Source: Streptomyces sp. CA-210063
GTDB taxonomy: Bacteria; Actinomycetota; Actinomycetes; Streptomycetales; Streptomycetaceae
Direction of reading: 5' to 3'
Assembly (NCBI RefSeq): GCF_024612015.1
Contig: NZ_CP102512.1
Coordinates: 9,610,001 to 9,674,000, forward strand
Length of the DNA stretch: 64,000 bases
Positions 6,622-32,010 of the stretch are shown here, piece after piece. Both the position numbers and the translations under genes were made by a program. How positions within the stretch are numbered: position 1 is the first letter of the stretch; each line of letters begins with the position of its first letter. The notes under the pieces were generated by a model. That model had not been told where the DNA came from. It saw nothing but the letters and a program-made list of their open reading frames with translations, and made no database searches.

Positions 6622-6649
6622 GCTATATGCAGTCGGGTAAGGGGCAGTC

Positions 6650-9137: not shown

Positions 9138-9155
9138 ATCTCTTCATCACGATTT

Positions 9156-9175
9156 TCGGAGCTCCCGGGCTCCGA
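9156..9175 (+). promoter_or_regulatory. intercistronic stem-loop before the binding-protein gene
   Basis: TCGGAGC (9156-9162) pairs perfectly with GCTCCGA (9169-9175) around TCCCGG. It lies between the permease stop and the GAGAGG ribosome-binding site of the binding protein. Such hairpins commonly protect the downstream message and raise binding-protein levels; that role is inferred. Confidence 0.5.
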
Positions 9176-9188
9176 GAGAGGAAAACCC

Positions 9189-10121: not shown

Positions 10122-10156
10122 CCGTCCCGGTCACGCCCACACCGTCCGCCCCCGCT

Positions 10157-10195
10157 CCTGCCCGGCACCGCGCACCGACCACCCCGCCGGGCAGG
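10157..10195 (+). terminator. terminator of the OpuC-type operon
   Basis: CCTGCCCGGC (10157-10166) pairs perfectly with GCCGGGCAGG (10186-10195), loop 19 nt. It sits between the binding-protein stop and the RpiR-type gene, both on the plus strand. A shorter hairpin (TGACCG/CGGTCA, 10119-10133) overlaps the stop codon. Confidence 0.55.
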
Positions 10196-10233
10196 GGGAG
10201 GGGACCGAGCACGACGACCGGCTGGGGGATCAG

Positions 10234-11382
10234 ATGGCTGACGCTGTCGGCACCGAGAGGTCTGAGGGAGTCGGTGCCGAACGACCTGGCTCCGAGAGGT
10301 CTGAGGGAGTCGGTGCCGAACGACCTGGGTCCGAGAGGTCTGAGGGAGTCGGTGCCGAACGACCTGGGTCCGAGAGGTCTGAGGGAGTCGGTGCCGAACG
10401 ACCTGGGTCCGAGAGGTCTGAGGGAGTCGGTGCCGAACGACCTGGGTCCGAGAGGTCCGAGGGAGTCGGTGCCGAACGACCTGGGTCCGAGAGGTCCGAG
10501 GGAGTCGGTGCCGAACGACCCGGTGGAGCCGGCCCCGAAGGACTCGGAGGCGTCGGTACGTCCGCGCGGCTGCACCAGCTCTTCGAGGGGCGTCGGCTCA
10601 CCCCGACCCAGCGCCGTATCGCCCACTGCCTGGTCCGGCAGGCGGCGGACGTGCCCTTCCTGTCGAGCGTGGAACTGGCCCAGCTCGCCGGAGTCAGCCA
10701 GCCCTCGGTGACCCGTTTCGCGGTCGCCCTCGGCTTCGACGGCTACCCGGCCCTCCGCGCCCACCTCCGGGACGTCGCACCCGCCTGGGACGGCTTCGAC
10801 GGCCGGTCGCGGAACCCGTACCAGCAGGCAGTACAGGCCGAGATCGACAACCTGCGGCACCTCGCGTCCCTGCTGGCCGACCCCGAGCCCGTCGAACGAG
10901 CGGGCCGGCTGCTCGCCGCCTCCCGTCCCCTGCCGGTCCTCGGGCTGCGCGCCTCCGCCGCCCAGGCACGCGGCTTCGCCTACTTCACCGCGAAGGTCCA
11001 CCCCGACGTACGGCTGCTCGACGAGGGCGGCTCACTGCTCGCCGACCGCATCGACGCGGCCCGGAAGGCGGGCGCCAGCGCGCTGCTGTGCTTCGCGCTG
11101 CCGCGCCACCCGCGTGAACTCCTCGACGCCCTCGCCCACGCCCGCGCCGCGGGCCTCACGGTGGTGACCATCGCCGACGGCACCTTCGCCCCGGTCGCCG
11201 CCCACAGCGATCTGCTCCTCCCCGCCGCCGTCGGCACCGGCCTGGTCTTCGACACCGTCAGCGCCCCCATGCTGCTGGGTCAGGTCCTCCTGGAGGCGAT
11301 GTGCGACGCCCTCCCGGACGCCCAGGCCCACTTGGAGGAGTTCGACGCGCGGGCCGCCGCGCGCGGACTGTTCGTGGAGTGA
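10234..11382 (+). CDS. MurR/RpiR-family transcriptional regulator with repetitive N-terminus
   Basis: 382 residues from ATG 10234 (GGGGGAT upstream). Residues 8-98 are seven copies of a 13-residue unit, ERSEGVGAERPGS; no in-frame ATG/GTG was found after the repeats, so they are probably translated. The family proper begins at about residue 110: a RpiR helix-turn-helix (LTPTQRRIAHCLVRQAADVP, then SSVELAQLAGVSQPSVTRFA) followed by a SIS sugar-phosphate domain (PVLGLRASAAQARGFAYF, LLCFALPRHPRE, VVTIADGTFAPVA). Such proteins control sugar or amino-sugar catabolism in response to phosphosugars. Its nearest plus-strand neighbour is the OpuC-type operon, but a terminator separates them. Confidence 0.85.
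   Translation: MADAVGTERSEGVGAERPGSERSEGVGAERPGSERSEGVGAERPGSERSEGVGAERPGSERSEGVGAERPGSERSEGVGAERPGSERSEGVGAERPGGAGPEGLGGVGTSARLHQLFEGRRLTPTQRRIAHCLVRQAADVPFLSSVELAQLAGVSQPSVTRFAVALGFDGYPALRAHLRDVAPAWDGFDGRSRNPYQQAVQAEIDNLRHLASLLADPEPVERAGRLLAASRPLPVLGLRASAAQARGFAYFTAKVHPDVRLLDEGGSLLADRIDAARKAGASALLCFALPRHPRELLDALAHARAAGLTVVTIADGTFAPVAAHSDLLLPAAVGTGLVFDTVSAPMLLGQVLLEAMCDALPDAQAHLEEFDARAAARGLFVE
10255..10527 (+). repeat. seven tandem 39-bp coding repeats
   Basis: Seven head-to-tail copies start at 10255, 10294, 10333, 10372, 10411, 10450 and 10489. Copies 2-5 are identical; copy 1 differs by one base near its end; copies 6-7 share a T-to-C change and copy 7 diverges in its last bases. Because 39 is a multiple of three the reading frame is kept, giving a 13-residue acidic/basic repeat in the RpiR-type protein. 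The near identity points to recent expansion. Confidence 0.95.
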
Positions 11383-11431
11383 CCTCAGGCGCCGCTCGGG
11401 GAGCCCCGACGCAAGCGGGCGGACAGATACG

Positions 11432-13186
11432 TCAGTCGGTGCCGCGCAACGCGACCCAGGTGTCGCGCGCGACGACGCCGTCGGCGTTCAGCCCCTTGTC
11501 GCTCTGGAAGTTCCGCACCGCGGCCTCCGTCCCGGTCCCGAACTCGCCGTCCGCGTCCCCGACGCCGTACCCGCGCCCGGTCAGCATGCACTGGACCTGC
11601 GACACGCGTTTGCCGCTGTCCCCCAGGCGGGTGCGTCCGTTGCCCGAGTAGTACGTGCAGTCCGAGAGCCCGGCCGGGGTCGAGGGCTCGGTGGACTCGT
11701 CGGCCGGGGGCGGCGTGGTCCCGGTGGGCGCGCCGGTCCCTGGCGCGGGCGCGGAGGAGTCGGTGTGCCGGTCGTCGTCGGGGGTGCCGGAGCCGGACGC
11801 GTCGGGGCGCGCGGCGTCGCCGTCAGGCGCGGCCGGGTCACCCTTGCCGGACACCTCCGAGACCCCGGACCCACCGTCCGGGACGGCCGCCGCACCGCCC
11901 GAGCCGCCGGTCGCCGACGCCGAGGCGGCCTCGCCGGGCAGAGCGTCGGCGGAATTCGTCGTGCCCGTCTCCGGCGACGCCGTGGTGCCGGAGGGGCTCT
12001 GGAGGGTGAGTACGACGACACCGGCGGCCGCCGTGCTCAGGGCGAGACCGGCGGCGCCGACCAGCACCCGCTTGCGGCGGGTCCAGGTGCGGGGCCGCGT
12101 CGGACGTAACTCCTGTGCCGACGCGTCGGCGGGCGGACTCGAGGGTACGTCGGCGGACGGACTCGGAGCCTTCTCCACGCGCTCGGACTCGGGCTGTTCG
12201 AGGGGGAGCCGGCACAGCGCCTCGTACGCCCGCTGCCGGGCGAGGACTCTGCCGCCCAGCGGCTCGGGCCAGCCGGACGTCTCGGAGCTCCCGGGGTCGG
12301 CCCCGGCCGCCTCGATCAGCTGCCCCGGGGTCGGCCGGCTCCCGGGCTCCTTGGCCAGGCAGGCGGCCAGCAGCGAGGCGAGGGTGGCGTCGGCCGCCGC
12401 GATCTCGGCGAGCACTTTCGGGTTGGGCTCCTCGAAGGCCACCCGGTGCATGACGTCGACGCCGGTGCCGTCGCCGAACGGGGCGCTGCCCGTCGCGGCG
12501 AAGACCAGGGCGCAGGCCAGAGAGAACACGTCCGAGGCGGTGTCGCACTCACCCGTGCGCAGGTACTCCGGGGACATGTAGGCCGGGGTGCCCACCCGGT
12601 TGCCCGTGCCGGTGATCGCGCTCGCGTCGGCGGCCTTCGCGATGCCGAAGTCGATGACGTGCGCGCCCCGGGCGGAGAGCAGGACGTTGGACGGCTTCAG
12701 GTCCCGGTGCACGATCCCCGCGGCGGAGAGGTCGGCGAGCGCCTGCCCCAGCTCCGCCACCAGCCGCCGGACGGCGACGGCCGGCAGCGGACCGTCCTCG
12801 TGCACGGCGGCCGCCAGATCGAGCCCGGGCACGTACTCCGTGGCCATCCACAGCAGTTCGTCCCGGAAGCCCGTGCCGGCCAGGCGCGGCATACGCGGGG
12901 TGCGCACCCGGCTGTGGACCGACGCCTCGTGCTCGAACCGGCGGCGGAACCGGACGTCCTCCGCGTACTCGGGCCTGATCACCTTCACGGCGACGAGGTC
13001 GGGCCCGCCGTCCACGGGACGCGCCAGATAGACGCGCCCCATACCGCCGCTGCCGAGCAGCCCCAGTGACACATAGGGACCGATGCGGTCCGGGTCGCCG
13101 GGGCGCAAGGGCAGGGCACCCGCCTGTCGCAGCGCCGGAGCCTTCTCTGCCGTCGAACGTGATGGCACCGGCCGCTGGTCTGACAC
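11432..13186 (-). CDS. membrane Ser/Thr protein kinase with extracellular peptidoglycan-binding domain
   Basis: 584 residues from GTG 13186. Order: Hanks-type kinase with Gly-loop LGSGGMGRVYLA (44-55), Lys68, HRDLKPSN (160-167), DFG (179-181) and APE-type GTPAYMSPE; a basic juxtamembrane stretch; one membrane helix (about 374-396); a Ser/Thr/Pro/Gly-rich external linker of over 100 residues; and a C-terminal PG_binding_1 domain (about 512-582, CTYYSGNGRTRLGDSG...) with two cysteines. It probably senses the cell wall and phosphorylates cytoplasmic targets, as PASTA kinases do, but with a different outer domain. It converges on the RpiR-type gene. Confidence 0.93.
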   Translation of the reverse strand: MSDQRPVPSRSTAEKAPALRQAGALPLRPGDPDRIGPYVSLGLLGSGGMGRVYLARPVDGGPDLVAVKVIRPEYAEDVRFRRRFEHEASVHSRVRTPRMPRLAGTGFRDELLWMATEYVPGLDLAAAVHEDGPLPAVAVRRLVAELGQALADLSAAGIVHRDLKPSNVLLSARGAHVIDFGIAKAADASAITGTGNRVGTPAYMSPEYLRTGECDTASDVFSLACALVFAATGSAPFGDGTGVDVMHRVAFEEPNPKVLAEIAAADATLASLLAACLAKEPGSRPTPGQLIEAAGADPGSSETSGWPEPLGGRVLARQRAYEALCRLPLEQPESERVEKAPSPSADVPSSPPADASAQELRPTRPRTWTRRKRVLVGAAGLALSTAAAGVVVLTLQSPSGTTASPETGTTNSADALPGEAASASATGGSGGAAAVPDGGSGVSEVSGKGDPAAPDGDAARPDASGSGTPDDDRHTDSSAPAPGTGAPTGTTPPPADESTEPSTPAGLSDCTYYSGNGRTRLGDSGKRVSQVQCMLTGRGYGVGDADGEFGTGTEAAVRNFQSDKGLNADGVVARDTWVALRGTD

Positions 13187-20099: not shown

Positions 20100-21737
20100 T
20101 CAGACGTCCTCATGCGTAGCGGCTGTGGCGGGGGAGAGCGGAAGGGGGCGGGAGTGGGCGGTCCCCATGAGGGAGATCGTGAACGGGTGCCGTGGTGCCG
20201 TCAGGATCTGGTGGGCGGGGCCCTGTTCGACGAGTTCGCCGGCGTCCATGACCGCGATGCGGTGGGCCACGGCCGCGGTGTCCAGGTCATGGGTGATCAG
20301 GACCAGGGCCGGGCCGCTGTCGCCCAGCAGGCCCGCGAGGACGTCGAGGATTCCTCGCCGGGTGACCGTGTCGAGCCCGGAGGTGATCTCGTCGCAGATC
20401 AGGACGCGGGGGTGGGCGAGGAGTGCGCGGGCCAGGGCGGCGCGTTGGAGTTCGCCGCCGGAGAGCTGGGCCGGGCGTCGGCGCACCAGGTCCGGTGGGA
20501 GGCCCAGACGCGTCAGGGTCGTCAGCGCCTCGGTCTCGGCGGCGCGGTCGTCGGCGCCGCGCAGCCGGACCGCCGTGCGGGCCACCTGGTGCAGGACCGG
20601 GCGGTGTTCGTCGAAGGCGGCGCGGGCGTCCTGGAAGACGTACTGCACGGCCGCCAACTGCCCCCGGCCGCGGTCGCGCAGGCTGCGCGGCAGGGGGGTG
20701 CCGTCGAGGAGGATCTCGCCGTCGTGGTCGCGGTGGAGCCCCGCGAGGCAGCGCGCGAGGGTGGTCTTGCCGCTGCCCGAGCGGCCGACGACGGCCAGGC
20801 ATTCCCCGGCGCGCAGGGCGAGTTCGGGGGCGCGCACGGCCACGGTCGTGCCGCGTGAGCCGTCGCGGTGGCGGGCGGTGAGGCCGCGTACGCGCAGCAC
20901 GGGCTCCGGAGCCGCTCCCACTGAGCCGCCGCGGTCACCGGCCTCCGTCCCCGTCACCGTTCTGGTGAACGACGGCTGTGCGTCGAGGAGTTGGCGGGTC
21001 CACTCGTGCCGGGGCGCGAGCCACAGGTCGTGAGTCGCGCCCGACTCCACGACACGTCCCGCCCGCATGACATGGACCTCGTCCGCGAGCGCGCGCACGA
21101 CGTCGAGGTCGTGGCTGAGCAGGACGACCGCGATGCCGCGCGCCGCGACCGCCGCCAACTGGTCGACGACGAGGCTCTTGGTCAGGGCGTCCTGGCCGGT
21201 GGTGGGCTCGTCCGCGACGACGATCCGGGCGCCGAGCAGGAGGGCCTGGGCGAGGACGACGCGTTGCTGCTGGCCACCGGAGAGCTGATGCGGGTAGCGG
21301 CGCAACAGCGCTTCAGCGTCGGGGAGCTGGGCATCGGTCAGGGCCTGGAGGACGCGTTCGCGGGCGGCTGTTCGGCGTCCGCCGCGGGGCAGGTGACGTA
21401 CCTGCGCGCGGGCGATGTCGGTCAGCAGGGCGCTGATACGGCGGGCCGGGTTGAGGACGGCCGCCGGATGCTGCGGCACGTATCCGACGAGGCCCTCGTC
21501 CGCCACGCGGACATCGCCGCTGATGTGCGCGCCCACCGGGAACTCGCCGAGCAGGGCCAGCCCGGTGGTCGTCTTCCCGCTGCCCGAGGCACCCACCAGC
21601 GCGGTGACCCTGCCGGGCAGGACACGCAGACTCACCCCGTCGACGATCGCCCGGCCGCCCACCTCGACCCGTAGATCCGTGATCTCGGCCAGGGGCGGCG
21701 AGGCGGCCCGGCCGCCGCCGTCGTCGTACTGCTTCAC
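20100..21737 (-). CDS. fused double ATPase of a dipeptide/nickel-type ABC importer
   Basis: 545 residues from GTG 21737, which overlaps the preceding stop (GTGA). Two complete nucleotide-binding domains: first Walker A GASGSGKTT, signature LSGGQQQR, Walker B IVVADEPTT; second Walker A GRSGSGKTT, signature LSGGELQR, Walker B VLICDEITS. It equals DppD and DppF joined in one chain. It powers the two permeases immediately upstream and is the last gene of the ten-gene operon that starts at 31898. Relatives move peptides, nickel or metal-chelate complexes. Confidence 0.93.
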   Translation of the reverse strand: MKQYDDGGGRAASPPLAEITDLRVEVGGRAIVDGVSLRVLPGRVTALVGASGSGKTTTGLALLGEFPVGAHISGDVRVADEGLVGYVPQHPAAVLNPARRISALLTDIARAQVRHLPRGGRRTAARERVLQALTDAQLPDAEALLRRYPHQLSGGQQQRVVLAQALLLGARIVVADEPTTGQDALTKSLVVDQLAAVAARGIAVVLLSHDLDVVRALADEVHVMRAGRVVESGATHDLWLAPRHEWTRQLLDAQPSFTRTVTGTEAGDRGGSVGAAPEPVLRVRGLTARHRDGSRGTTVAVRAPELALRAGECLAVVGRSGSGKTTLARCLAGLHRDHDGEILLDGTPLPRSLRDRGRGQLAAVQYVFQDARAAFDEHRPVLHQVARTAVRLRGADDRAAETEALTTLTRLGLPPDLVRRRPAQLSGGELQRAALARALLAHPRVLICDEITSGLDTVTRRGILDVLAGLLGDSGPALVLITHDLDTAAVAHRIAVMDAGELVEQGPAHQILTAPRHPFTISLMGTAHSRPLPLSPATAATHEDV

Positions 21738-22624
21738 GACCGTCGTTCCTTCCGTACCCGGCGCTCGCCGCGCCGGCCGTTCCCGCCGCGAACGTCGGGC
21801 TTCTCCAGCGCGGCGTCGAAGAGGAGGTTGGTGCCCGTGGTCAGCGCGACGATCAGCAGCGCGGGTACGACCACGGCCCATGGCTGGACGAACAGGCCGG
21901 TGCGGTTGCGGTCGACCATCACCGCCCAGTCGGCGGCGTCCGGCGCCACCCCGACGCCGAGGAACGCGGCCGTGGCGACCAGGTACAGCACACCGGTCAG
22001 CCGGGTGCCGGCATCGGCGCCGAGGGTGCGCAGGATCGTGCGGCCGACGTAGCCGACGGCCGTGCGCCACCAGCTCTCGCCCTGGAGCCGGAGTGCCTCG
22101 ACGACGGGCCGGGCGGCGGCCTCCGTGGCGGCGGCGCGTACGAGGCGGGCCGCGTCCGGCACATTGACCAGCGCCACCAGGAGGGCGAGGCCGACGGCAC
22201 CGGGGGTGAACACGGAGGACACGAGCAGGATCAGCAGCAGCGACGGGACCGCGATCAGGACGTCCAGGGGGCGCATCAGCAGCTCCTCCAGCCAGCGCCG
22301 ATGCGTCAGCGCGGCGATCAGACCGACCGGCAACGCGACGAGATAGGCGAGCGCCCCGGCGCCGAGCGCGGTCAGCACGACCGGCCGACCGCCGTGCAGC
22401 ACCTGCCGCCACACGTCCCGGCCCACGAAGTCCGTGCCGAGCCAGTGCCCGCCGCCGAGCGTGAAGGACGCGGACCGCGCCCCGGGCTCGCCCGCGAACA
22501 CCGGGCCCAGCAGGGCGAGGAAGAGGGGTACGGCGATCACGGCGACGCCGAGGGCGAAACGGCCCGTGCGTCGACGCCGGGTAGCGGGAACGACGACTGC
22601 GCTGATGTCCACGTCCGTCGTCAC
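21734..22624 (-). CDS. ABC importer permease, DppC/NikC-like
   Basis: 296 residues from GTG 22624 (GTGA overlap with the upstream permease). The N-terminus carries one helix and the HWLGTDFVGRDVWRQVLHG motif typical of DppC/OppC; the coupling loop is EALRLQGESWWRTAVGYV. The tail after the last helix is basic. It forms the inner-membrane channel with the next permease. Confidence 0.92.
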   Translation of the reverse strand: MTTDVDISAVVVPATRRRRTGRFALGVAVIAVPLFLALLGPVFAGEPGARSASFTLGGGHWLGTDFVGRDVWRQVLHGGRPVVLTALGAGALAYLVALPVGLIAALTHRRWLEELLMRPLDVLIAVPSLLLILLVSSVFTPGAVGLALLVALVNVPDAARLVRAAATEAAARPVVEALRLQGESWWRTAVGYVGRTILRTLGADAGTRLTGVLYLVATAAFLGVGVAPDAADWAVMVDRNRTGLFVQPWAVVVPALLIVALTTGTNLLFDAALEKPDVRGGNGRRGERRVRKERRS

Positions 22625-23721
22625 GCCGCCACCCCCGCCCGGGGCGCCAGCCGCCGGGCGACCACATCCGCGCCCAGGTTGAGGACGACGGTCAGGACAC
22701 CGAAGACCACGGCCAGGCCCTGGACGACGGGTACGTCGCGTTCGGCGACCGCGTTGAGGAGAACGGTGCCGAGTCCGGGGATCACGTAGAGGGCCTCCAC
22801 GACGATGACGCCGCACAGCAACCAGTCGATGGTGCGGGCGAGTTGCTGGGCGGCGGGGGCGAGGGCATGGGGGAGTGCGTGGGCGTAGCGGACGCGGGCA
22901 CCCGGCACGCCGTACCGGAGGGCGTGGGCGACGTACGGGGACGCGAGGGCGTCGACCATGCCGGCGCGGACCAGGCGGACCAGGGAGCAGACCGGCCGGG
23001 AGAGCAGGACCAGAACGGGCAGGACGAGCGCGGCCGGGTGGGCGAGCAGGTCGGCGCCGTAGCCGACGGCGGTCGGCGGCAGCCAGCCCAGCTTCAGCGC
23101 GAAGACGGTCACCAGCAGCACCCCGAGGGCGAACTCGGGGACCGCGTACACGGCGAGCGTCAGGGAGCTGATGAGCCGGTCGACGAGTCCGCCCTCGTGG
23201 CGGGCGGCGAGCACGCCGAGGCCGAAGCCGATGGGCACGAGGAGAGCCACGGTGAGCGCGGCCAGCAGCAGGGTCGGCCCGAAGCCGTCGGCGATGTACT
23301 GGCCGACCGGGCGGCCGGAGGCCAGGGAGGTGCCGAAGTCGCCGTGCAGCAGGCCGAGCGCCCAGTCGGCCAGCCGCTCGTGCACCGGCCGGTCGAGATG
23401 CATGGCCTCGCGGATGGCGGCGATGCGTGCCGGGTCGGGCTGGTCGCCGGCGAGGGCGACCGCGGCGTCGCCCGGCAGCGCCTCGGTGAGCGCGAAGACC
23501 AGCAGCACGACGGCCACGGTCTGCGCGACGCCGAGAAGCAGCCGCCGGGCGATGAAGGAGCGAAGCGCTCCACGGGGGGTGCCGCGATGGGTTGTCTTGT
23601 CTGTGCGGCGTCGTCGTGGCTTGTCGCGCCCCGCGGCGGAGCCGCATGTCGACACAGCCCCGCGCCCCTTCGGGGCGCGGGCGAACCGTGGGGGATGTCG
23701 CTCGGTCTGCCCGGATGTCAC
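22621..23721 (-). CDS. ABC importer permease, DppB/NikB-like, with an unusual N-terminal extension
   Basis: 366 residues if translation starts at GTG 23721, which overlaps the binding-protein stop as GTGA, the same coupling seen elsewhere in this operon. The family normally begins at its first membrane helix, here FIARRLLLGVAQTVAVVLLV near residue 56. The extra 50-odd residues are Arg/Gly/Pro/Thr-rich and are encoded by a palindromic element of intergenic type (see 23590-23680). No in-frame ATG or GTG was found between the element and the first helix; a GTG at 23655 inside the element is an alternative. The coupling loop AHALRYGVPGARVRYAHALP and six-helix pattern are normal. Confidence 0.85.
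   Translation of the reverse strand: MTSGQTERHPPRFARAPKGRGAVSTCGSAAGRDKPRRRRTDKTTHRGTPRGALRSFIARRLLLGVAQTVAVVLLVFALTEALPGDAAVALAGDQPDPARIAAIREAMHLDRPVHERLADWALGLLHGDFGTSLASGRPVGQYIADGFGPTLLLAALTVALLVPIGFGLGVLAARHEGGLVDRLISSLTLAVYAVPEFALGVLLVTVFALKLGWLPPTAVGYGADLLAHPAALVLPVLVLLSRPVCSLVRLVRAGMVDALASPYVAHALRYGVPGARVRYAHALPHALAPAAQQLARTIDWLLCGVIVVEALYVIPGLGTVLLNAVAERDVPVVQGLAVVFGVLTVVLNLGADVVARRLAPRAGVAA
23590..23680. repeat. palindromic intergenic-type element inside the permease 5' region
   Basis: Contains a perfect hairpin CGCGCCCC-TTC-GGGGCGCG (23661-23679) flanked by GCGGCGGAGCCGC (about 23633-23645), itself a hairpin, and TTGTCGCGCCCCG. This arrangement resembles repetitive palindromes that I recall as common between genes of Streptomyces chromosomes. 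Here it lies inside the translated frame of the DppB-like permease. Confidence 0.6.
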
Positions 23722-25301
23722 GCGAGCCACACCTTGTCGAAGCGTGCCCAGTCGAGCGTGTTGGCGGGGGCCTTGACCTCAACTCCCTTCACCGTCTTGG
23801 CCGTTCCGAGGATCCAGTCGGCGAACCCCCAGATCAGGAAACCGCCCTCGGCGTACAGCCGGCGCTGCATCCGCTCGTAGACGGCGGCCCGCTCCGTCTT
23901 GTCCCGCGTCGACTGTGCCTGCTGGTACAGCGCGTCGAAGTCCTTGTGCTGCCACTTGGTGGCGTTGGTGGTGGAGTCGGTGAGCAGTCGCTGCGAGATG
24001 TGCGCCTCGATGGGCATGGCGCCGGAGCGGTAGCAGGCGAGGGTGCCGGAGTCGAGGATGTCGCTCCAGTACGAGTCCTTGCTGCCCATCTTGACGTCGA
24101 TCGTGACGCCCGCCTTCGCGGCCTGGTCGCGGAAGATGCTGGCCGCCTCGGTGAACCCGGCGGCCACGGCCGAGGTGTCCAGGCTGACCTTCAGCTTCTC
24201 GGCACCGGCCTGCTTGAGCAGGGCCTTGGCGCGGTCGAGGTCCTGCTCGCGCTGGGGGAGGTCGGCGGCGTAGTACTCGTAGCCCTTGCCGAACAGGTCG
24301 TTGCCGACCACGCCCGCCCCGGACAGCGCGCCGTCGACGAGTTCCTGGCGGTCGGCGATCAGGAAGAACGCCTCACGTACCCGCTTGTCGTCGAAGGGCG
24401 CCCGGTCCGTCTTCATGCAGAACGCCTGCATGGCGCTGTTGCGCAGCCGGACGATCTCGATCTGTCCCTTGCCCTCGTGGGCGCGGGCGGTGGTGGGGTT
24501 CAGCTCGTGGGCGTACTCGACCTGGCCGCCGAGGAGGGCGTTGACGCGGGCGGACTCCTCGTTGGCGACGACGAATTCGAGTTCGTCGAGGTGCGGGGCG
24601 CCCTCCCAGTACTCGTCGTAGCGGCGGAAGACGGCCGAGCGGCCGGGGGAGAAGGACACGAAGCGGAAGGGGCCGGAGCCGATCGGCTTCTTGTCGAAGG
24701 CGGTGTCGGCGGTGTTCTCGGGCACGATGTACGCGCCGAACGCGGCCAGTACGTTGGGGAATTCGGCGGTCGGCCGCTTCAGCACGAACTCGATGCTCCG
24801 CTCACCGGTGGCCCGGCTCGCGTCGAGGTCGATGGGCTCCAGGGACGCCTTGGCGCGGAACGCCTTCTCAGGGTCGGCGATACGGCGGTAGCTGAACAGC
24901 ACGTCCTTCGCGGTGACCGGCTTGCCGTCGTGGAAGGTCGCCTCGCGCAGGGTGACCTGCCAGCGGTCCAGGGCCTTGTTCGACTCCCACTTCGTGGCCA
25001 GGCGCGGCTGGGCGGACAGATCGGGTCCGTAGTCGGCGAGCTTGTCGAACAGCGCCTTGGCTCTGGCGACGTCGGCGAACAGATTGGCCAGATGCGGATC
25101 GAGGGTCTCGCTGGCGCCGCCGCCCGCGAAGGCGGCACGCAGCCGCCCGCCGCGCTTGGGCGTGCCGTCGCCGCCGTCCGCCTCGGCGTCCGTACCGCCG
25201 TCCTCGCCGCACCCCGTCAGGGCGAGCGCGCCGAGCGTGACGGCACCCGTGGCGGCGAGGAAACCGCGTCGGCGCAGACCGGGGAAAAGATCGTCGTGCA
25301 T
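23718..25301 (-). CDS. substrate-binding lipoprotein of dipeptide/nickel-type ABC importer
   Basis: 527 residues from ATG 25301 (AAGGAA upstream). The N-terminus combines a twin-arginine-like motif (RRRGFLAATGAV) with lipobox LTGC, so export may be by Tat followed by lipidation. The body is a family 5 extracellular solute-binding protein (GGRLRAAFAGGGASETLDPH, KPIGSGPFRFVSF, NEESARVNALLGGQVEYAHE). Such proteins bind oligopeptides, nickel or metallophore complexes. It follows the methyltransferase by 42 bp, the longest gap in the operon, and precedes the permeases with GTGA overlap. Confidence 0.92.
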   Translation of the reverse strand: MHDDLFPGLRRRGFLAATGAVTLGALALTGCGEDGGTDAEADGGDGTPKRGGRLRAAFAGGGASETLDPHLANLFADVARAKALFDKLADYGPDLSAQPRLATKWESNKALDRWQVTLREATFHDGKPVTAKDVLFSYRRIADPEKAFRAKASLEPIDLDASRATGERSIEFVLKRPTAEFPNVLAAFGAYIVPENTADTAFDKKPIGSGPFRFVSFSPGRSAVFRRYDEYWEGAPHLDELEFVVANEESARVNALLGGQVEYAHELNPTTARAHEGKGQIEIVRLRNSAMQAFCMKTDRAPFDDKRVREAFFLIADRQELVDGALSGAGVVGNDLFGKGYEYYAADLPQREQDLDRAKALLKQAGAEKLKVSLDTSAVAAGFTEAASIFRDQAAKAGVTIDVKMGSKDSYWSDILDSGTLACYRSGAMPIEAHISQRLLTDSTTNATKWQHKDFDALYQQAQSTRDKTERAAVYERMQRRLYAEGGFLIWGFADWILGTAKTVKGVEVKAPANTLDWARFDKVWLA

Positions 25302-25343
25302 GAGGGTTCCTTGGGTGTCGTGTGGTGTGGTGTGGATGAGGGG

Positions 25344-26363
25344 TCAGTGGGCAAAGGTGAGTCGCGCGACGACGTGCAGCCGGTCCGCGTCCGTCGCGCG
25401 GCCGGGCAACTGCCCTTCCTGCCACGGTGGTTCGGTACGCGGGCCCGGACCGTCGTGCAGTTCGAGCACCTCGAAACCGTGCGTGACCAGGACGTGGCGC
25501 AGCTCCTGCGGGAACAACAGCCGCCATGCGGAGCACTGTTCGGCGGGTGGCGCGCCGTCGTCCGAGGTCCAGACGCGGGTACGGCGCAGCAGTTGGGCGG
25601 TGCGGTCGACGGTCAGGGTGGTGGTGGACCGGTAGGCCGTGCCCTGCCAGGTGAAGGCGTTGACGGTCGGGGTGTCGAGCAGGTCGGTACGGCCCAGGAA
25701 GTACGCGCCGTTGCGCATCTCCGCGACCAGCAGCCCGCCGGGCGCGAGCGCCCGGCGGCAGGAGGCGAGGAAGCCGTCGAGCTGGGCGTTGGTGTGGCAG
25801 TACAGCAGGGAGCTGTCCAGGCAGACGACCGCGTCGAAGGCGGCCCGGCCCAGGTCGAAGCCGTGCAGGTCCGCCCGCACGTACGTCGGCCCGGGGTGCC
25901 GGTCCCCGGCGTGGGTGAGCATCGCCTCGGAGAGGTCCGCGCCGGTCACCGTACGGCCGGCGTCGTGCAGGTGCGCGGCGTCGCGCCCGGTGCCGCAGCC
26001 CATGTCCAGGACGCGCGGCCCGGCCCCGTGGCGCCGCAGACAGTCCTCGGCCCAGCGCCCGGCCAGCCGGCCGGAGTCGGGGAAGCGGGCCTCGTACAGC
26101 TCGGGGTTGTCGGTGAGGAGGTTGCGGCCCACGACCCGGGCGGTCGCTCGGCCTGTCGTGTCGGCGATCGGTGATCCCGGCGCCTCGCCTCTCACCTCGC
26201 CGGTCGCTCGGCTGGTGGCCTCGCCCCCCACCTGGTCGGTCGCTCGGCTCGTGCCCTTGTTCGTCACGGCGCCGGCCGTTCGGCTGGTGGCCTCGCCCCT
26301 CATATCGGCGGTCGCTCGGCTCGTGGCCTCGCTCGTCACGTCGCCGGTCGCTCCGCCCGTCAT
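25344..26363 (-). CDS. class I SAM-dependent methyltransferase with repetitive N-terminus
   Basis: 339 residues from ATG 26363 (ATGA overlap with the MFS stop; GGAG upstream). Residues 5-64 are five degenerate 12-residue repeats of the form ATxxVxxEATSR, probably disordered. The catalytic fold follows: motif I VLDMGCGTG (118-126), acidic loop VTGADLSEAML, and YVRADLHGFDLG, VVCLDSSLLYCH, APGGLLVAEMRNG. It resembles small-molecule methyltransferases. Its place among ligase, PLP enzyme and exporter genes suggests it modifies the operon's product, but the substrate is unknown. Confidence 0.88.
   Translation of the reverse strand: MTGGATGDVTSEATSRATADMRGEATSRTAGAVTNKGTSRATDQVGGEATSRATGEVRGEAPGSPIADTTGRATARVVGRNLLTDNPELYEARFPDSGRLAGRWAEDCLRRHGAGPRVLDMGCGTGRDAAHLHDAGRTVTGADLSEAMLTHAGDRHPGPTYVRADLHGFDLGRAAFDAVVCLDSSLLYCHTNAQLDGFLASCRRALAPGGLLVAEMRNGAYFLGRTDLLDTPTVNAFTWQGTAYRSTTTLTVDRTAQLLRRTRVWTSDDGAPPAEQCSAWRLLFPQELRHVLVTHGFEVLELHDGPGPRTEPPWQEGQLPGRATDADRLHVVARLTFAH
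26172..26351 (-). repeat. five degenerate 36-bp coding repeats in the methyltransferase
   Basis: Successive 36-bp units encode ATGDVTSEATSR, ATADMRGEATSR, TAGAVTNKGTSR, ATDQVGGEATSR and ATGEVRGEAPGS. On the plus strand CGGTCGCTCGGCT recurs at the same spacing. Copies differ more than those at 10255-10527, so this array is older. Confidence 0.85.
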
Positions 26364-27622
26364 GCCGTGCTCCTCTCTTTCCCCGGGGCGGTGGTGACCG
26401 GGGCCGGCGTGGAGGGCAGTGCCCCGCGCCGGTACAGCCAGGCCACCCCGCCCGCCGAGGCCAGCCCGAACAGGGCGCAGCATGCCCAGGGCAGCCAGCC
26501 GTGGCCGCCGCGCGCCCCGGCGTCCATGGCCCACCCGACGACGGTGTTGCCGACGGCCGCCGCGACCCCCGAGACCACGTAGAAGATCCCGAAGTACGTG
26601 CCGGTCAGCTCCGGTCGCCCGAAGCGCGGGATCAGCTCCATCACGAACGGCGAGGCGACCATGAGGCCGAGGTAGAGGAGCAGCGCGCCGAGCAGGACGG
26701 GTACGGCGGCGAGCCACCCGGAGGCCCCGACGCTCGCCCCGAGGGCCGGCGGCACGAACGCCAGTGCCGTCACCGCGAGCCCCACGCCGATCCACCGTGC
26801 CCTGTCGCCCCGCGACTTGAGCGATTTGGTGATACGCAGCTGGAGCGCGAGATTGGCGAGCGTGCCCACGAGGAAGACGAGGCCGGCCGCGCCGTCCCAG
26901 CCGGTGGCGTCGCGTGCTCCGGCGGGCAGCAGCAGGTACAGCTGGTTCTCCAGGGTGAACATGCCGACCATGGCGAGCGCGAACGCCAGGAAGGCCCGGT
27001 TCCCGAGGACCTCGCGCCAGTCGCCGAGGACACCGCTGCCGGTCGGCTCGACCTTCCGGGCGGGCAGGACGAGGGCCTGCGCCACGGTGAGGACCGCGAA
27101 GATCCCGGCGGCGGTGAGCGCGGACGTACGGAAGTCCACGAGCAGCAGCACGCTGCCCAGCAGCGGCCCGATCAGGGCTCCCGTCGTGGCGAACACGTTG
27201 AACAGCGCGAACGCCTCCGCCTTGCGCTCCCCGGCCTCCTGCGCCAGATAGGCCCGCACCGCCGGATTGAACAGGGCCCCGGCGAGCCCGCTGAGTACCG
27301 AGGCGGCCAGGAGCACCGCCAGCCCGTCGCCGAGCGCGAACAGCCCGAACCCGACGGTCCGCAGCGCGCACCCGGCGATGATGACCCCCCGGGCGCCGAG
27401 CCGGTCGGACGCGGAGCCGCCGATGATGAACAGGCCCTGCTGGCTGAGGTTCCGGACGCCCAGGACGATGCCGACGACGGCCGCCGACATGCCCAGGTTC
27501 TCGGTGAGGTGGGTGGCGAGGTAGGGGATCAGGAGGTAGAAGCCGATGTTGACGCCCAGCTGGTTGACCAGCAGGAGGCGGACGGCGAACGGGAAGCGGC
27601 GTATCTCATGCCACGTCTGCAC
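26360..27622 (-). CDS. MFS transporter, probable exporter of the operon product
   Basis: 420 residues from GTG 27622 with GGGAGA upstream; the start lies inside the preceding gene (17-bp overlap). Twelve predicted membrane helices and the MFS loop motif GSASDRLGARG after helix 2. It resembles drug/metabolite antiporters. In a biosynthetic operon that also has an ABC importer, export of a made compound is the simplest role. The longer open frame upstream is excluded because it is hydrophilic and lies in the epimerase gene. Confidence 0.88.
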   Translation of the reverse strand: MQTWHEIRRFPFAVRLLLVNQLGVNIGFYLLIPYLATHLTENLGMSAAVVGIVLGVRNLSQQGLFIIGGSASDRLGARGVIIAGCALRTVGFGLFALGDGLAVLLAASVLSGLAGALFNPAVRAYLAQEAGERKAEAFALFNVFATTGALIGPLLGSVLLLVDFRTSALTAAGIFAVLTVAQALVLPARKVEPTGSGVLGDWREVLGNRAFLAFALAMVGMFTLENQLYLLLPAGARDATGWDGAAGLVFLVGTLANLALQLRITKSLKSRGDRARWIGVGLAVTALAFVPPALGASVGASGWLAAVPVLLGALLLYLGLMVASPFVMELIPRFGRPELTGTYFGIFYVVSGVAAAVGNTVVGWAMDAGARGGHGWLPWACCALFGLASAGGVAWLYRRGALPSTPAPVTTAPGKERSTA

Positions 27623-28712
27623 GGCGTGTCTCCCCCGGCTGCCGAGCGTGCCCCGTCCGTCCCGCCTCCGCTGCCTCCCGAAGCCGAACTCCCAGACCAG
27701 GCACACCACTTGCGCGTACGAATCCGTCGGTGCCCCCGATGCCGGTCCACGGGTCGTCGGCGAGCAGGAGGTGCCCGTCGAGGTCCACCCAGCGGGCCCG
27801 GTCGGCGAGATGGACGGCGGGGGCGAGCCCGAGGCTGCTGGCGGTGAGGCAGCCGAGCATCAGCTCGGTGCCGCTGCCCTCGATCGACTCGGCGATCCGC
27901 AGGGCCGCGTGGACGCCGCCGCACTTGGCGAGCTTGATGTTGACTCCGTGTACACGCCCCGCGAGCCGCCGTACGTCCTCCAGCCCCACCGCGTCCTCGT
28001 CGGCGATGACGGGCAGCGGCGAGCGCTCCGCGAGGGCCGCCAGGGCGTCCGGATCACCGGGAGCGAGGGGCTGCTCGACGGCCTCCACCCCGAGTTCCGC
28101 GAAACGCGGCAGCAGGACCTCGGCCTGCGCCGCCGACCAGGCGCCGTTGGGGTCCAGGAGCAGCCGGACCCGGGGTGCGGCGTCGCGGATGACCCGTACG
28201 CGTTCGACGTCGTCCTCCGGGTCGGGCGCCCCGGCCTTGACCTTGACGACCTCGAAGCCGCTCGCGGCGAGGCGGCGGGCCTCGGCCGCGGCACGCGTCG
28301 GCGAGGTGATGCCGATGGTCCGGGCGGTCGCGGCCACCGGTGCCACCGGAGCGCCGAGCAGCCGGTGCACGGGGCTGTGCGCCCGCTTCCCCACGAGGTC
28401 GAGCAGCGCGGCACCCACGGCGGCGGTCACGGCGGGCGGAGTGCCCGCCCCGGCCGGCTCGCCGCCCCGCAGGGCCTCCAGGGCGCTCTCCGGATCACCG
28501 AAGCGGACGAGGTCCGCGGCGACGGCGGTGAACAGCCGTCCAAGGGTGTCGGCGTCGAGGCCGTAGTAGACGCTGGTGACGGCCTCACCGTGGCCGGCCA
28601 GTCCGTCGTGTTCGATGGTCAGCCACACCGCGTCACGCGCGGACATGGTGGAGCGGGAGATGCGCAACGGCTCGGCGAGTTCGAGGCGTACGGTGCGCTG
28701 GGTGGCCTTCAC
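27606..28712 (-). CDS. dipeptide epimerase-like enolase-superfamily enzyme
   Basis: 368 residues from GTG 28712 (GTGA overlap; GGAAGAG upstream). Muconate-cycloisomerase-type barrel with both bases and metal ligands: KVKAG (Lys157, Lys159), Asp187 (LLLDPNGAW), Glu213 (EQP), Asp238 (ADEDA) and Lys260/Lys263 (NIKLAKCGG). The late DLD motif (310-312) is the feature by which Ala-Glu-type dipeptide epimerases grip the dipeptide amino group. It probably inverts one alpha-carbon of a dipeptide or peptide-like substrate made by this operon. An o-succinylbenzoate-synthase role is less likely because of the DLD motif and context. Confidence 0.82.
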   Translation of the reverse strand: MKATQRTVRLELAEPLRISRSTMSARDAVWLTIEHDGLAGHGEAVTSVYYGLDADTLGRLFTAVAADLVRFGDPESALEALRGGEPAGAGTPPAVTAAVGAALLDLVGKRAHSPVHRLLGAPVAPVAATARTIGITSPTRAAAEARRLAASGFEVVKVKAGAPDPEDDVERVRVIRDAAPRVRLLLDPNGAWSAAQAEVLLPRFAELGVEAVEQPLAPGDPDALAALAERSPLPVIADEDAVGLEDVRRLAGRVHGVNIKLAKCGGVHAALRIAESIEGSGTELMLGCLTASSLGLAPAVHLADRARWVDLDGHLLLADDPWTGIGGTDGFVRASGVPGLGVRLREAAEAGRTGHARQPGETRRADVA

Positions 28713-29797
28713 AGTCTCTCTTCCGAATGGGGGACCTTGAGCGGATCGGCGACCCTGCCGCACCGGACCCAGCCGACGGCCTCGGCCGCACCGGGATGGG
28801 GGATCTCGACGGGGCGGACGGCGGCGGAGGCCGGGTCGAGGCCGTGCGCGGTGGCGAAGTCGTCGTCGTAGACACTGCCGAGGTAGCGGTGGGGGCCGTC
28901 CGGAAAGACGGTGGCGACGACGGCGCCCGAGTGGACGCGGGCCGCCCAGGCGGCGACGAGCGCGACCGCGCCGGTGCTCCAGCCGCCGCTGACGAAGCTG
29001 CCCCGGGCGAGCCGACGACAGCTGTCCACGGCCTCCGCGGGCCCGACCCAGTGGACCTCGTCGAAGGCGTCGTAGGCGACGTTGCGCGGGTGGATGCTGC
29101 TGCCCAGGCCGCGCATCAGTCTCGGCCGGGCCGGCTGGCCGAAGATCGTGGAGCCGGTGGAGTCGACGCCGACGAGGCGCAGCGCGGGCCAGTGCCGCCG
29201 CAGCGGGCCGATGATGCCCGCGCTGTGGCCGCCGGTGCCGACACTGCACACCAGGATGTCCAAGTGGTCCAGCTGGACGGCGAGTTCGGCGGCCAGCGAG
29301 GCATAACCGGCGGTGTTGTCCGGGTTGTTGTACTGGTCGGGCCAGTACGCCCCCGGCAGCACGGCCAGCAGCTCCCGCAGCCGCGCGAGGCGCGCCGCCT
29401 GCCAGCCGCCCCGGGGGGCCGGGCGGTCCACCAGCTCCAGCCGTACGCCGTGGGAGCGCAGCAACTGCCGCATGGACGGCTCCAGTTCGCTGTCGCCGAC
29501 CAGCACGACCGGATGGCCGAGCGCCTGCCCCGCGAAGGCGAGCCCGATGCCCAGCGTGCCGGACGTCGACTCCACCACCGGGGCGCCGGGCCGCAGTTCG
29601 CCGCGCTCACGGGCGCCCAGCAGCATGGACACGGCGGCCCGCGCCTTCATCCCGCCCGCCGCGAGCCCTTCCAGCTTGGCCCAGAACCCCGGCTGGGGCC
29701 CGGGCAGATCGGCGGTGATGCGCGCCAGCGGCGTACGCCCGACCAGGGACAGCAGCTCGGGGCGGGCGACGGTACGCAGGACGGTCGACGAGGTCAC
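28709..29797 (-). CDS. cysteine-synthase-like PLP-dependent enzyme
   Basis: 362 residues from GTG 29797 (GTGA overlap; GGGAG upstream). Fold-type II PLP enzyme: likely Schiff-base Lys51 in GGMKARAA, glycine-rich phosphate loop SVGTGGHSAG, and NNPDNTAGY. The substrate loop reads STSGTLG instead of the TSGNTG of true cysteine synthases, so beta-replacement with sulfide is doubtful. Relatives in metallophore pathways (SbnA type) replace the phosphate of O-phosphoserine with an amino nucleophile to make diaminopropionate precursors. A similar C-N bond-forming role is inferred here. Confidence 0.82.
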   Translation of the reverse strand: MTSSTVLRTVARPELLSLVGRTPLARITADLPGPQPGFWAKLEGLAAGGMKARAAVSMLLGARERGELRPGAPVVESTSGTLGIGLAFAGQALGHPVVLVGDSELEPSMRQLLRSHGVRLELVDRPAPRGGWQAARLARLRELLAVLPGAYWPDQYNNPDNTAGYASLAAELAVQLDHLDILVCSVGTGGHSAGIIGPLRRHWPALRLVGVDSTGSTIFGQPARPRLMRGLGSSIHPRNVAYDAFDEVHWVGPAEAVDSCRRLARGSFVSGGWSTGAVALVAAWAARVHSGAVVATVFPDGPHRYLGSVYDDDFATAHGLDPASAAVRPVEIPHPGAAEAVGWVRCGRVADPLKVPHSEERL

Positions 29798-30645
29798 TGG
29801 CGGTCTCCCGGATCCGGACAGTTGAGGTGGTAGCGGTGCAGCGTGCCCGGCCCCGCGTCCAGCCAGAAGAAGGGATACGGCTCCGCGCACACCGCGCTCA
29901 CGCCGTGACCGAGGAACCTGGGCAGCACCGCGCTGCCCGTCTGCGCGAACATCACCAACTGCTTGTCGTGCGCCAGCGCGTGCCGCCGCAACGGTTCGAA
30001 GGTGCCGTTGCTCAGCGTCATCCCGGACACGAGCAGCGCGTCACAGCGGTCGGCCGCCCCGAGCGCGTCGGCGACGACCTCCTCGCCCCACTCCGTGACC
30101 CCGCCCTTGAGATCGCACGGCACATAGCCGATCCCGCGCGAACGCAGCGCCTCCAGAAGGGAGTTGACGACACCCACCACGAGCACCGTCGCACCCGGTG
30201 GCGATGCGAGCAGCTCGACCACGGCCCGCGCCCGCGCTCGCGACTTCTCCAGCGACGTCCCGGCCGGCAGCGCGAACGGGCGCGCCCCGTTCTCCGGCGT
30301 GTGCGGGCCGACATGCATCAGATAGGCGTCCAGCGCGGCCACCCGTACCGGAAGGAGCGGATGATCCAGAAGGCGGGCGACATCGGCGCCGACACAGTCG
30401 TCGATCGCCGCGTCCGGCAGAGCGCCGGGCTCGACCGCGCAGGACCCCACGGCACCGGCGAGCCGCAGGCTGAGCACCTCGTTCCGATAGCCGGTACCCC
30501 GCCCGTCGTGCCGCACGGCCTGCCGCGTCACGAACGCCACCGCGATCCGCACCGTCCTCGGATCCGGGCCGAGTTCGCCCGCGCGAGCCCGCTCCACCAG
30601 TTCCTCGTACGTGGCCGCGCGGGCCATCGGCGCGACGGCGGTCAC
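29794..30645 (-). CDS. DUF364 Rossmann-like putative heavy-metal chelation protein
   Basis: 283 residues from GTG 30645, overlapping the ATP-grasp stop as GTGA; an internal ATG at 30627 is an alternative. The C-terminal half (VLVVGVVNSLLEALRSRGIG, ALLVSGMTLSNGTFEPLRRH, QLVMFAQTGSAVLPRFLGHG) matches DUF364, a Rossmann-like domain proposed to bind metals; the N-terminal half matches the DUF4213-type domain usually fused to it. Conserved Cys/Asp/His are present but ligands cannot be fixed by eye. Its presence is one of the main reasons to read this operon as metal-related. Confidence 0.75.
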   Translation of the reverse strand: MTAVAPMARAATYEELVERARAGELGPDPRTVRIAVAFVTRQAVRHDGRGTGYRNEVLSLRLAGAVGSCAVEPGALPDAAIDDCVGADVARLLDHPLLPVRVAALDAYLMHVGPHTPENGARPFALPAGTSLEKSRARARAVVELLASPPGATVLVVGVVNSLLEALRSRGIGYVPCDLKGGVTEWGEEVVADALGAADRCDALLVSGMTLSNGTFEPLRRHALAHDKQLVMFAQTGSAVLPRFLGHGVSAVCAEPYPFFWLDAGPGTLHRYHLNCPDPGDRQ

Positions 30646-31898
30646 CGGATCACCAGCCCGGCGCTCAACTCGCCCAGCAGCGCCTCGACCTGCCCGCGCG
30701 CACCCAGCCCGTCGGGGTCGCCCACCATGACATGCCCGAGATACTCGTTGTTGCTTCCCGCCGCCTTGACCGGCCGGCCCGGCTCGGCGAGCTGTACCTC
30801 CAACACGCCTGGCACATCCGTGAGTTGACCGCCGTCCAGCGCTTCGAGCGTGCCCGATCTCTCCGGTACGAGGAAGCCGACGGCCGCGCTGCGCAGCCCG
30901 GTCTCCCGGCGCCGCAGATCGGGCTCGCGGCCGAGGGCGACCTCCACGGCGGCCGCGGCCAGGTCGATGCCGGTGACATGGCGGACCAGCTCGGTGATGC
31001 GGTTCCCGGCGGGCCGGGGGTTCACCTCGACCACACGCGGCCCGGCCGGGGTCAGCTTGATCTCCGTGTGCGCCACGACACCGTCGGTCAGCCCGAGCGC
31101 CTTGAGCGCGCCCAGCGCGGTCTGCTCGGCGGCCTCCGCGTCGGCGCCCGTCAGGGCGGCGGGGAACATGTGCCCCGTCTCGATGAACGCGGGCGCCCCG
31201 CCGACGCTCTTGTCGGTCACCCCGACCACGTGCACCGCCCCGGCGTACGACACGGTCTCGACGCTCACCTCGGGCCCGGTCAGCAGCTCTTCGAGGAGCA
31301 CGGCGGGTACCCGCCGCTGCCCGCGCGCGTTCAGCGGAAAGTCGGCCAACTCCCTTACCGCCGACATGAGTTCGACCTCGTCGTCGACACGCCGTACGTA
31401 CATGCCCGCGCACAGGTCGACGGGCTTCACGACGAGCGGATAGCCGATCTCCCGTGCCGCCCGGGCGAGGTCGGCCCACTCCTCATGGAGAGCGAAACGC
31501 GGTCCGGGCACCCCGGCGTCGGCGAGGACGCGGCGGGTGGCGTCCTTGCGGCAGGCGTCCGCGACGGCCTCCGGGCCCGGCCCGGCGAGTCCGAGGTGCC
31601 CGGCGATCCGGGCCACCGTCGGCAGGTAGTAGTCGCAGGACGAGATCACTCCGTCGAAGCCGAACACCGCGTGCAGGCGTTCGACCTCCGGCAGCAGGGT
31701 GTCGATGTCGTTGGTGTCGGCCGTGACGATGTTCCGCGCGCCGAGCAGCGGATGGGCCGTGCCCTCGGGGGCCGAGCGGAGGTAGTGGTGCAGGTCGCGG
31801 GTGAGGAACGTGAACGCGTGCCCGCCCTCCCGGATGGCCCGTGGCAGCAGCCTGCTCATCGATCCGACCCAGCTCTCGACCACCAACAGATGAGCCAC
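30642..31898 (-). CDS. ATP-grasp ligase, first gene of the ten-gene operon
   Basis: 418 residues from GTG 31898 with AAGGGGAG upstream. N-terminal pre-grasp domain (AHLLVVESWVGSMSRLLPRA), then ATP-grasp features: PLVVKPVDLCAGMYVRRVDD, VSVETVSYAGAVHVVGVTDK and the metal-binding RVVEVNPRPAGNRITEL. These enzymes activate a carboxylate as acyl-phosphate and join it to an amine; many free-standing ones make dipeptides or amide-linked natural products. About 77 nt of leader separate it from the predicted transcription start behind a Fur/Zur-like operator. The substrate is unknown. Confidence 0.88.
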   Translation of the reverse strand: MAHLLVVESWVGSMSRLLPRAIREGGHAFTFLTRDLHHYLRSAPEGTAHPLLGARNIVTADTNDIDTLLPEVERLHAVFGFDGVISSCDYYLPTVARIAGHLGLAGPGPEAVADACRKDATRRVLADAGVPGPRFALHEEWADLARAAREIGYPLVVKPVDLCAGMYVRRVDDEVELMSAVRELADFPLNARGQRRVPAVLLEELLTGPEVSVETVSYAGAVHVVGVTDKSVGGAPAFIETGHMFPAALTGADAEAAEQTALGALKALGLTDGVVAHTEIKLTPAGPRVVEVNPRPAGNRITELVRHVTGIDLAAAAVEVALGREPDLRRRETGLRSAAVGFLVPERSGTLEALDGGQLTDVPGVLEVQLAEPGRPVKAAGSNNEYLGHVMVGDPDGLGARGQVEALLGELSAGLVIR

Positions 31899-31981
31899 AG
31901 CTCCCCTTTTCGTGCGGTGCGTTCCGGCCTCAGGGCAGCCCGACGGCACCTCGACAAGGAGGCGCCCGGCTTGACATGCCC

Positions 31982-32010
31982 ACCTTATCGATAATCGTTT
32001 TCATTGTCAT
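31982..32010 (-). promoter_or_regulatory. promoter with overlapping Fur/Zur-like operator for the ten-gene operon
   Basis: On the minus strand ATGACA (plus 32005-32010) and TAAGGT (plus 31982-31987) are separated by exactly 17 bp. The palindrome GATAATCGTTTTCATTGTC (plus 31990-32008) lies across the spacer: outer arms GATAAT/ATTGTC differ by one base, and by eye 14 of 19 positions agree with the classical Fur-box pattern. The AT-richness stands out sharply in this genome. Zur operators of actinomycetes look similar (TGAAAA half-sites), whereas the iron repressors DmdR/IdeR use TTAGGTTAGG-type boxes, so zinc is the favoured metal. Confidence 0.7.

Follow-up and report, generated by a model that had tools for sequence, protein, structure and literature searches.

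The 64-kilobase (kb) window analysed here, which is the whole stretch of DNA taken from positions 9610001-9674000 of the 10.86-megabase (Mb) chromosome of Streptomyces sp. CA-210063, contains a ten-gene operon (genes A to J) on the minus strand at positions 20100-31898. This operon is probably a complete, Zur-controlled metallophore system whose metal is most likely zinc, that is, a zincophore system. Its regulation and the logic of its genes, by which a product would be made, exported and imported again, are well supported; its chemistry we infer.

Gene content and conservation of the operon

A preliminary description of this DNA had proposed a single operon of ten genes with mostly 4-base-pair (bp) GTGA or ATGA junctions. 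All ten genes were found on the minus strand, and the families called with Pfam and NCBIfam agreed with those that had been named. The starts of genes A to J were refined before the following coordinates were fixed.

30642-31898, minus strand: A, ATP-grasp ligase of the L-amino-acid-ligase (LAL) type (418 residues); ATP-grasp_4 and LAL_C2 above curated cut-offs
29794-30645, minus strand: B, DUF364 protein (283 residues); DUF364 (PF04016)
28709-29797, minus strand: C, SbnA-like enzyme of the beta-replacement type, dependent on pyridoxal 5'-phosphate (PLP) (362 residues); PALP, 175 bits; TIGR03945 the best NCBIfam model
27606-28712, minus strand: D, epimerase/racemase-like enzyme of the MLE superfamily (368 residues); MR_MLE_N/C
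26360-27622, minus strand: E, major facilitator superfamily (MFS) transporter, probable exporter (420 residues); MFS_1, 116 bits; best NCBIfam model MdtH, below cut-off
25344-26363, minus strand: F, S-adenosylmethionine (SAM) methyltransferase (339 residues) whose N-terminal stretch, some 80 residues long, is repetitive; Methyltransf_25
23718-25301, minus strand: G, lipoprotein-like binding protein, SBP_bac_5; PF00496, 261 bits
22621-23721, minus strand: H, ATP-binding cassette (ABC) permease 1; BPD_transp_1 (scan on a shorter form of 314 residues); start set by the GTGA overlap
21734-22624, minus strand: I, ABC permease 2; BPD_transp_1
20100-21737, minus strand: J, two-domain ABC ATPase, NikDE/CntDF-like; ABC_tran in two stretches; start set by the GTGA overlap
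31982-32010, minus strand: promoter with operator; -35 ATGACA at 32010-32005 and -10 TAAGGT at 31987-31982, spacer of 17 bp; hexamers placed by eye

The 4-bp overlaps were found at seven of the nine junctions (A/B, B/C, C/D, E/F, G/H, H/I and I/J), the other two being a D/E overlap of 17 bp and an F/G gap of 42 bp. Upstream, a DUF2201 gene on the same strand, itself preceded by an AAA gene, ends 166 bp away, and downstream a convergent gene without a Pfam family ends at 20003; the operon is therefore well bounded.

The operon is common in Streptomyces. One scan of species-representative genomes gave 260 gene-A relatives confirmed by tblastn, and the best 80 of these formed our locus set (79 from Streptomyces and one from an "Actinobacteria bacterium"), in which, from gene D on, three to six loci per gene had too little sequence. 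The order ABCDEFGHIJ was kept in 72 of the 74 loci with room for ten genes, which argues that the arrangement is not due to chance. A further locus, L113, slightly short of room by the rule used, also has all ten genes in order and brings the overall count to 73 of 80; five of the remaining loci were too short for ten genes. All ten genes were also present in six of seven further relative loci; the A gene of one of the seven, L022, is the one that L065 contributes to the set of 80. In L023, gene G was read in two frames, a possible frameshift or sequencing error. At junctions A/B to F/G, the ones covered among the relatives, a 4-bp overlap was possible at A/B (79 of 79), B/C (77 of 79), C/D (76 of 76) and E/F (55 of 75) and was rarely possible at D/E (6 of 75) and F/G (3 of 74).

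The co-occurrence of the ligase, DUF364, PLP and epimerase genes, searched in this way, is thus conserved. In a phylum-wide sample of 396 genomes from 236 genera, B was matched (E-value 1e-20) in six genomes, its own included, all of them Streptomyces. In Streptomyces scabiei, C was located at 9.09 Mb; as judged by locus-tag interpolation only, the operon of this species does not appear in the table of 46 clusters given in PMC8914351.

The N-terminal extension of F is encoded by a 36-bp repeat in five copies (window 26182-26360), which adds about 80 residues, and six relatives align with F from residue 80 or 81 onward only. The start of F varies among relatives, that of S. scabiei lying nearly at the conserved part and those of L052 and L058 carrying other extensions. 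A Pfam scan (E-value 1e-6) of the 39 other proteins of the window left seven without any match and returned no family of metallophore synthesis or of nonribosomal peptide synthetases (NRPS). Elsewhere in the window, at 50594-54314, a terpene synthase, a methyltransferase and a SrpI-like encapsulin shell protein with a cyclic-nucleotide-binding domain adjoin one another, in what we take to resemble a 2-methylisoborneol-type locus.

The promoter and its Zur-like operator

The Fur/Zur-like palindrome that had been noticed at the promoter lies at 31985-32003; this 19-mer was the sole match in the window, with none in 100 shuffles. A Zur-like 15-bp box, TGAAAACGATTATCG, occupies 32003-31989, inside the spacer between the -35 and the -10. 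Among the 79 loci with upstream sequence, the box TGAAAATGATTATCG was found exactly in 44, with at most one mismatch in 71, with at most two in 75 and with at most four in 78. The exception was L095, with no box within 170 bp; L127, which has no upstream sequence, is not among the 79. The information content of the 78 box-anchored rows was 1.81 bits per position in the box versus 0.16-0.91 in the flanking 15-bp blocks; upstream of the box these rows had 75 different flanks and downstream of it 78. In the flanking hexamers, G/A and T positions were conserved too. The loci being related, the conservation of the box is partly shared descent; the flanks have nevertheless diverged.

A match to the published degenerate Zur consensus (tGaNNatSatNNtCa) was dropped as evidence when taken alone, because 17 sites in the 64 kb, the operator included, are equal to or better than that of the window box (14 others with two mismatches and two with one). 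The significance of the operator therefore derives from its conservation across loci and from the genome-wide rarity of a tighter pattern. The pattern TGANAAYSATTNTCR gave three sites in the whole genome and none in the control; one of the two other sites heads an SBP_bac_5 importer. A symmetric pattern with at most one mismatch gave ten sites, compared with two in the control. A ZnuA gene has two of the ten at its 5' end (one of them over the predicted start codon), and another immediately precedes a Cation_efflux gene. Among the Zur targets reported for Streptomyces coelicolor are zitB and znuA, which has two boxes (PMC5472717). With related boxes at ZnuA and Cation_efflux genes elsewhere on the chromosome, Zur control of the operon is well supported in silico, and the operon is presumably repressed by metal.

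Two other observations concern sites of this type. A perfect Zur-type box heads an SBP_bac_5 importer operon in L050 (7085-12474; G000:C1, 2.98 Mb), divergent from a P450-like gene named from reading the sequence; this importer is not close to G and is possibly a second metallophore importer. The genes SCO0472-SCO0475 of S. coelicolor are listed as Zur targets, with no function stated, in PMC6103462 and PMC4726154.

The importer, the enzymes and the proposed pathway

Comparison of G with the proteins of its own genome gave ten paralogues at an E-value of 1e-10, the best with 245 bits and the next with 120. The closest is encoded at 7.475 Mb (L161), clustered with genes of the TauD, cyclodeaminase, decarboxylase, cysteine-synthase and MATE types, and the same cluster was found in S. 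scabiei at 0.59 Mb (L146). The cluster for ethylenediaminesuccinic acid hydroxyarginine (EDHA) of S. scabiei has been placed at SCAB_5231-5311 (PMC8914351), and we call L161 and L146 EDHA-like by gene content and map position, not by locus tags. In a tree with several other long-branched rows, G grouped with both EDHA-like binding proteins (support 96/98), and from this kinship the most likely cargo of the importer is a metal chelate resembling an amino acid. J scored 300 bits with NikD, 287 with CntF and 283 with CntD, all below cut-off.

The best solved relative of A was the L-amino acid ligase BL00235 (3vot). With PF13535 at 59 bits and PF18603 at 46 bits, both above cut-off, A has the ATP-grasp and the C-terminal LAL domain of L-amino-acid ligases, and by its sequence it belongs to the dipeptide-forming ligase type.

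The best NCBIfam model for C was TIGR03945 (SbnA), at 237.9 bits for a cut-off of 349.95, and filing C as SbnA was ruled out by this score; the best solved relatives were nonetheless SbnA structures (5d84, 5d86 and 5d87). The altered TSG loop of the preliminary description reads ESTSGTLG in C and ESTSGNLG in SbnA, and the lysine motif reads GGMKARA in C and GGSMKDRP in SbnA. Of the residues that are reported to select O-phosphoserine in SbnA (Arg132, Tyr152 and Ser185; PMC12414870), C retains the arginine and the tyrosine and has a glycine in place of the serine. O-Phosphoserine and an amino acid are described as being joined by the cysteine-synthase-like enzymes SbnA, Fda4 and aspergillomarasmine A synthase, the last of which makes aspergillomarasmine A from O-phosphoserine and aspartate (PMC12751119), a compound characterised as a selective zinc chelator (PMC8319579).

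Paralogues of C adjoining an E-like MFS gene were found as two-gene pairs in the same genome (L159, 8522-9631 and 7227-8525) and in S. scabiei (L147, 9402-12040), with 57% identity to C for the PLP enzyme and 44-46% to E for the transporter. Such pairing suggests that a product of the C type may be exported on its own, and the pair is possibly a minimal unit for making and exporting a chelator. No Zur-type box within one mismatch was found at the EDHA-like clusters L146 and L161 or at the L159 pair; L147 has one such box, more than 4 kb from its pair.

D scored 227 bits with the DgcA racemase model, below its cut-off of 400. Its residues KVK 157-159, Asp187, Glu213, Asp238, Lys260 and DLD 310-312 align with 3iji, and we take them to be the Lys/Lys acid-base pair, the three acidic metal ligands and the DxD of dipeptide epimerases. 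B has an Enolase-N-like and a Rossmann-like fold, is a true DUF364 (PF04016) by fold, and its family shows invariant residues of its own. Foldseek matches of B to a PLP-transferase and an epimerase reflect resemblance at the level of domains and were set aside.

In the mechanism that we propose, the order of the enzymes, their substrates, the product, zinc as the metal and the binding of Zur are all our interpretation. When zinc is present, Zur would sit between the -35 and the -10 and block the promoter, as the motif and its position suggest; when zinc is absent, all ten genes would be made together. C would join an activated serine (probably O-phosphoserine) to a second amino acid, through the amino group of the latter, to give an N-(2-amino-2-carboxyethyl)-amino acid of the type of N-(1-amino-1-carboxy-2-ethyl)-glutamic acid (ACEGA) or aspergillomarasmine. 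The N-C-C-N chelating unit would be kept, because no SbnB, cyclodeaminase or decarboxylase gene adjoins C. B would perform a companion step of unspecified kind, A would add an amino acid through an amide, D would invert the carbon next to a carboxylate and F would methylate; E would then export the product and G to J would recover its metal complex.

The preliminary description had read the enzymes as making a zinc chelator based on diaminopropionate or on a dipeptide, exported by the MFS protein and recovered by the ABC importer. The chelator part is favoured by the make-export-import set and by the kinship of the importer with the EDHA-like one. Free diaminopropionate is disfavoured relative to a retained SbnA-type condensation product, because no SbnB or cyclodeaminase gene stands beside C; retention of the aminocarboxyethyl backbone specifically is a proposal that we hold as evenly balanced.

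Several results weigh against a Zur-controlled zincophore of this kind. The right half-site of the operator ends in G, not A, in nearly all relatives, the window box has two mismatches to the published 15-bp consensus, and the pattern TGANAAYSATTNTCR was modelled on the window box, with one of its two other sites lying between convergent genes. Two loci with room for the whole operon depart from the ten-gene set, L105 having A-D only and L123 lacking B and C, and one of the seven further loci, L026 (G012:C1:7570001-7590000), carries just A-E, with a degenerate box. The NCBIfam scores of C, D, G and J do not reach the equivalog cut-offs, C falls in another clade than the EDHA-like cysteine synthase, and cyclodeaminase-like genes elsewhere in the genome could supply free diaminopropionate.

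The same genes could serve a metallophore for another metal (iron, nickel or cobalt), with the box read by a different Fur-family repressor. The box would resemble Fur-type boxes generally, and the best NCBIfam scores of G, H, I and J are with nickel-type families; however, related boxes stand at the ZnuA and Cation_efflux genes of this genome and importers of the Opp/Nik type are also used by EDHA-like and staphylopine systems, so that we consider another metal unlikely. A dipeptide antibiotic in the style of bacilysin or dapdiamide, in which A would join the amino acid made by C to another, E would export the product and G to J would have a side function, agrees with the relationship of A to L-amino-acid ligases, the alanine-anticapsin ligase BacD being among its matches, and bacilysin likewise depends on a ligase and an MFS protein. 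We regard an antibiotic as distinctly improbable: 78 of 79 loci retain the Zur-type operator, 72 of 74 have the full importer in the same gene order, and the binding protein of this importer is related to that of an EDHA-like one.

The salvage of peptides or cell wall is the least probable of the explanations that we weighed, and we give it very little credence. The importer would bring in peptides, D would epimerise them, and A and C would rework them; murein recycling employs importers of the Opp type as well as dipeptide epimerases, and both families are present in the operon. A ligase, an SbnA-like synthase, an exporter and a Zur-type box would be unexpected in such a pathway, and no peptidase domain was matched by Pfam in the ten operon proteins. 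A zincophore made by A to D and F remains the reading that we prefer.

A second DUF364 operon type and comparison with known systems

A second type of operon was found in other Streptomyces (L029-L038), with a DUF364 protein of 35-40% identity to B. All ten loci have a C-like PLP gene and nine have a J-like ABC ATPase, L030 being the exception. Pfam, applied to part of the loci, detected a GHMP kinase in L029, L031, L032 and L034 and a FecCD/Peripla_BP_2 importer in L029. Zur-type boxes were found at or near the operon head in six of the ten, with a perfect consensus in L029, L030 and L031 and one mismatch in L032, L035 and L036; the other four had none. In a PLP tree that took in four enzymes of the second type, on a long branch, these fell in the clade of C, and both operon types and the paralogue pair formed one group (98/97), apart from the EDHA-like enzyme. 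B of either type was present in 121 of 295 Streptomyces genomes; among 37 Streptomyces genomes, that of CA-210063 included, eight had the close form and ten a form of 37-42% identity, G012 having both. This last genome, which holds L026, carries the second type as L038.

In L030 (G006:C13:133001-153000), the DUF364 and PLP genes stand at 655-11460 near a methyltransferase gene and genes resembling those of SAM synthetase and methionine salvage, the names other than methyltransferase coming from reading the sequence. This locus has two perfect Zur consensus boxes (5870 and 6125), and its product is possibly a SAM-derived, nicotianamine-like zincophore.

A structure paper of 2010 proposed for DUF364 a condensation or hydrolysis in siderophore-like synthesis and suspected metal chelation (PMC2954201). 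We put forward tentatively, at somewhat below an even chance, that the pair of a DUF364 protein and a PLP enzyme of the SbnA clade defines a new NRPS-free class of Zur-controlled Streptomyces metallophores with at least two architectures (one of ten genes with ligase, epimerase and methyltransferase, the other with a kinase and a FecCD importer). It would give DUF364 its first enzymatic role, and the ten-gene operon of the window would make a new compound, an aminopolycarboxylate resembling a dipeptide, in which a centre is epimerised and methylated. If the operon is a zincophore system, it would represent a chemistry of zinc acquisition that genome mining based on NRPS, opine or ethylenediaminedisuccinic acid (EDDS) genes may miss, and would provide a testable reaction for a family suspected of chelation since that structure.

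The logic of synthesis, export and import under a metal repressor is known, and the gene set is new relative to the open-licence full texts searched, in which we found no description, product or name for the ten genes and no description of the second DUF364-PLP operon type. The enzymes differ from those of the staphylopine (cnt) and EDHA systems, whose logic the proposed pathway follows. The EDDS cluster of Amycolatopsis japonicum is reported to be Zur-controlled (PMC4993170, PMC6103462); our comparison was made with the EDHA-like L161 and L146, not with the EDDS cluster itself. The operon shares with EDHA/EDDS clusters an exporter, a PLP enzyme resembling cysteine synthase and a related importer of the SBP_bac_5/Opp type. 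Unlike the EDHA-like clusters, it has a ligase, a DUF364 protein, an epimerase, a methyltransferase and an MFS protein, and its PLP enzyme belongs to another clade. Searches by tblastn with the EDHA-like cyclodeaminase, decarboxylase, TauD and MATE proteins gave no match in the window, and in the 80 loci they gave none for the cyclodeaminase, TauD and MATE queries and two for the decarboxylase (28-32% identity). Filing the operon as EDDS/EDHA was ruled out, as the two defining genes, for the cyclodeaminase and the decarboxylase, are absent.

In the staphylopine and pseudopaline pathway, an amino acid is racemised, the backbone is extended, and the product is exported and then imported by a transporter of the Opp/Nik family. 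The operon follows the logic of these opine-type metallophores (cnt, zrm), and its J resembles CntD and CntF. As had been claimed at the outset, genes of the NRPS, nicotianamine-synthase and SbnB types were not found in the window: the Pfam matches of its 49 proteins included no nicotianamine-synthase or opine-dehydrogenase family and no adenylation or condensation domain such as the NRPS of coelibactin-type metallophores would have, and an SbnB-like query had no match in the window or in any of the 80 loci. The operon resembles the SbnA/SbnB route of staphyloferrin B in that C is nearest to SbnA among solved structures and NCBIfam models, and differs from staphyloferrin B in having no siderophore-synthetase family among the Pfam matches of the 49 proteins.

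The proposed zincophore would point to a small aspergillomarasmine-like zinc chelator, of a class studied as inhibitors of metallo-beta-lactamases (PMC8319579). The likeness to aspergillomarasmine A synthase, a fungal enzyme described as part of a two-gene cluster (PMC12751119), is one of description, not of sequence: in both, O-phosphoserine would be condensed with an amino acid and the product kept as an aminopolycarboxylate chelator of zinc.

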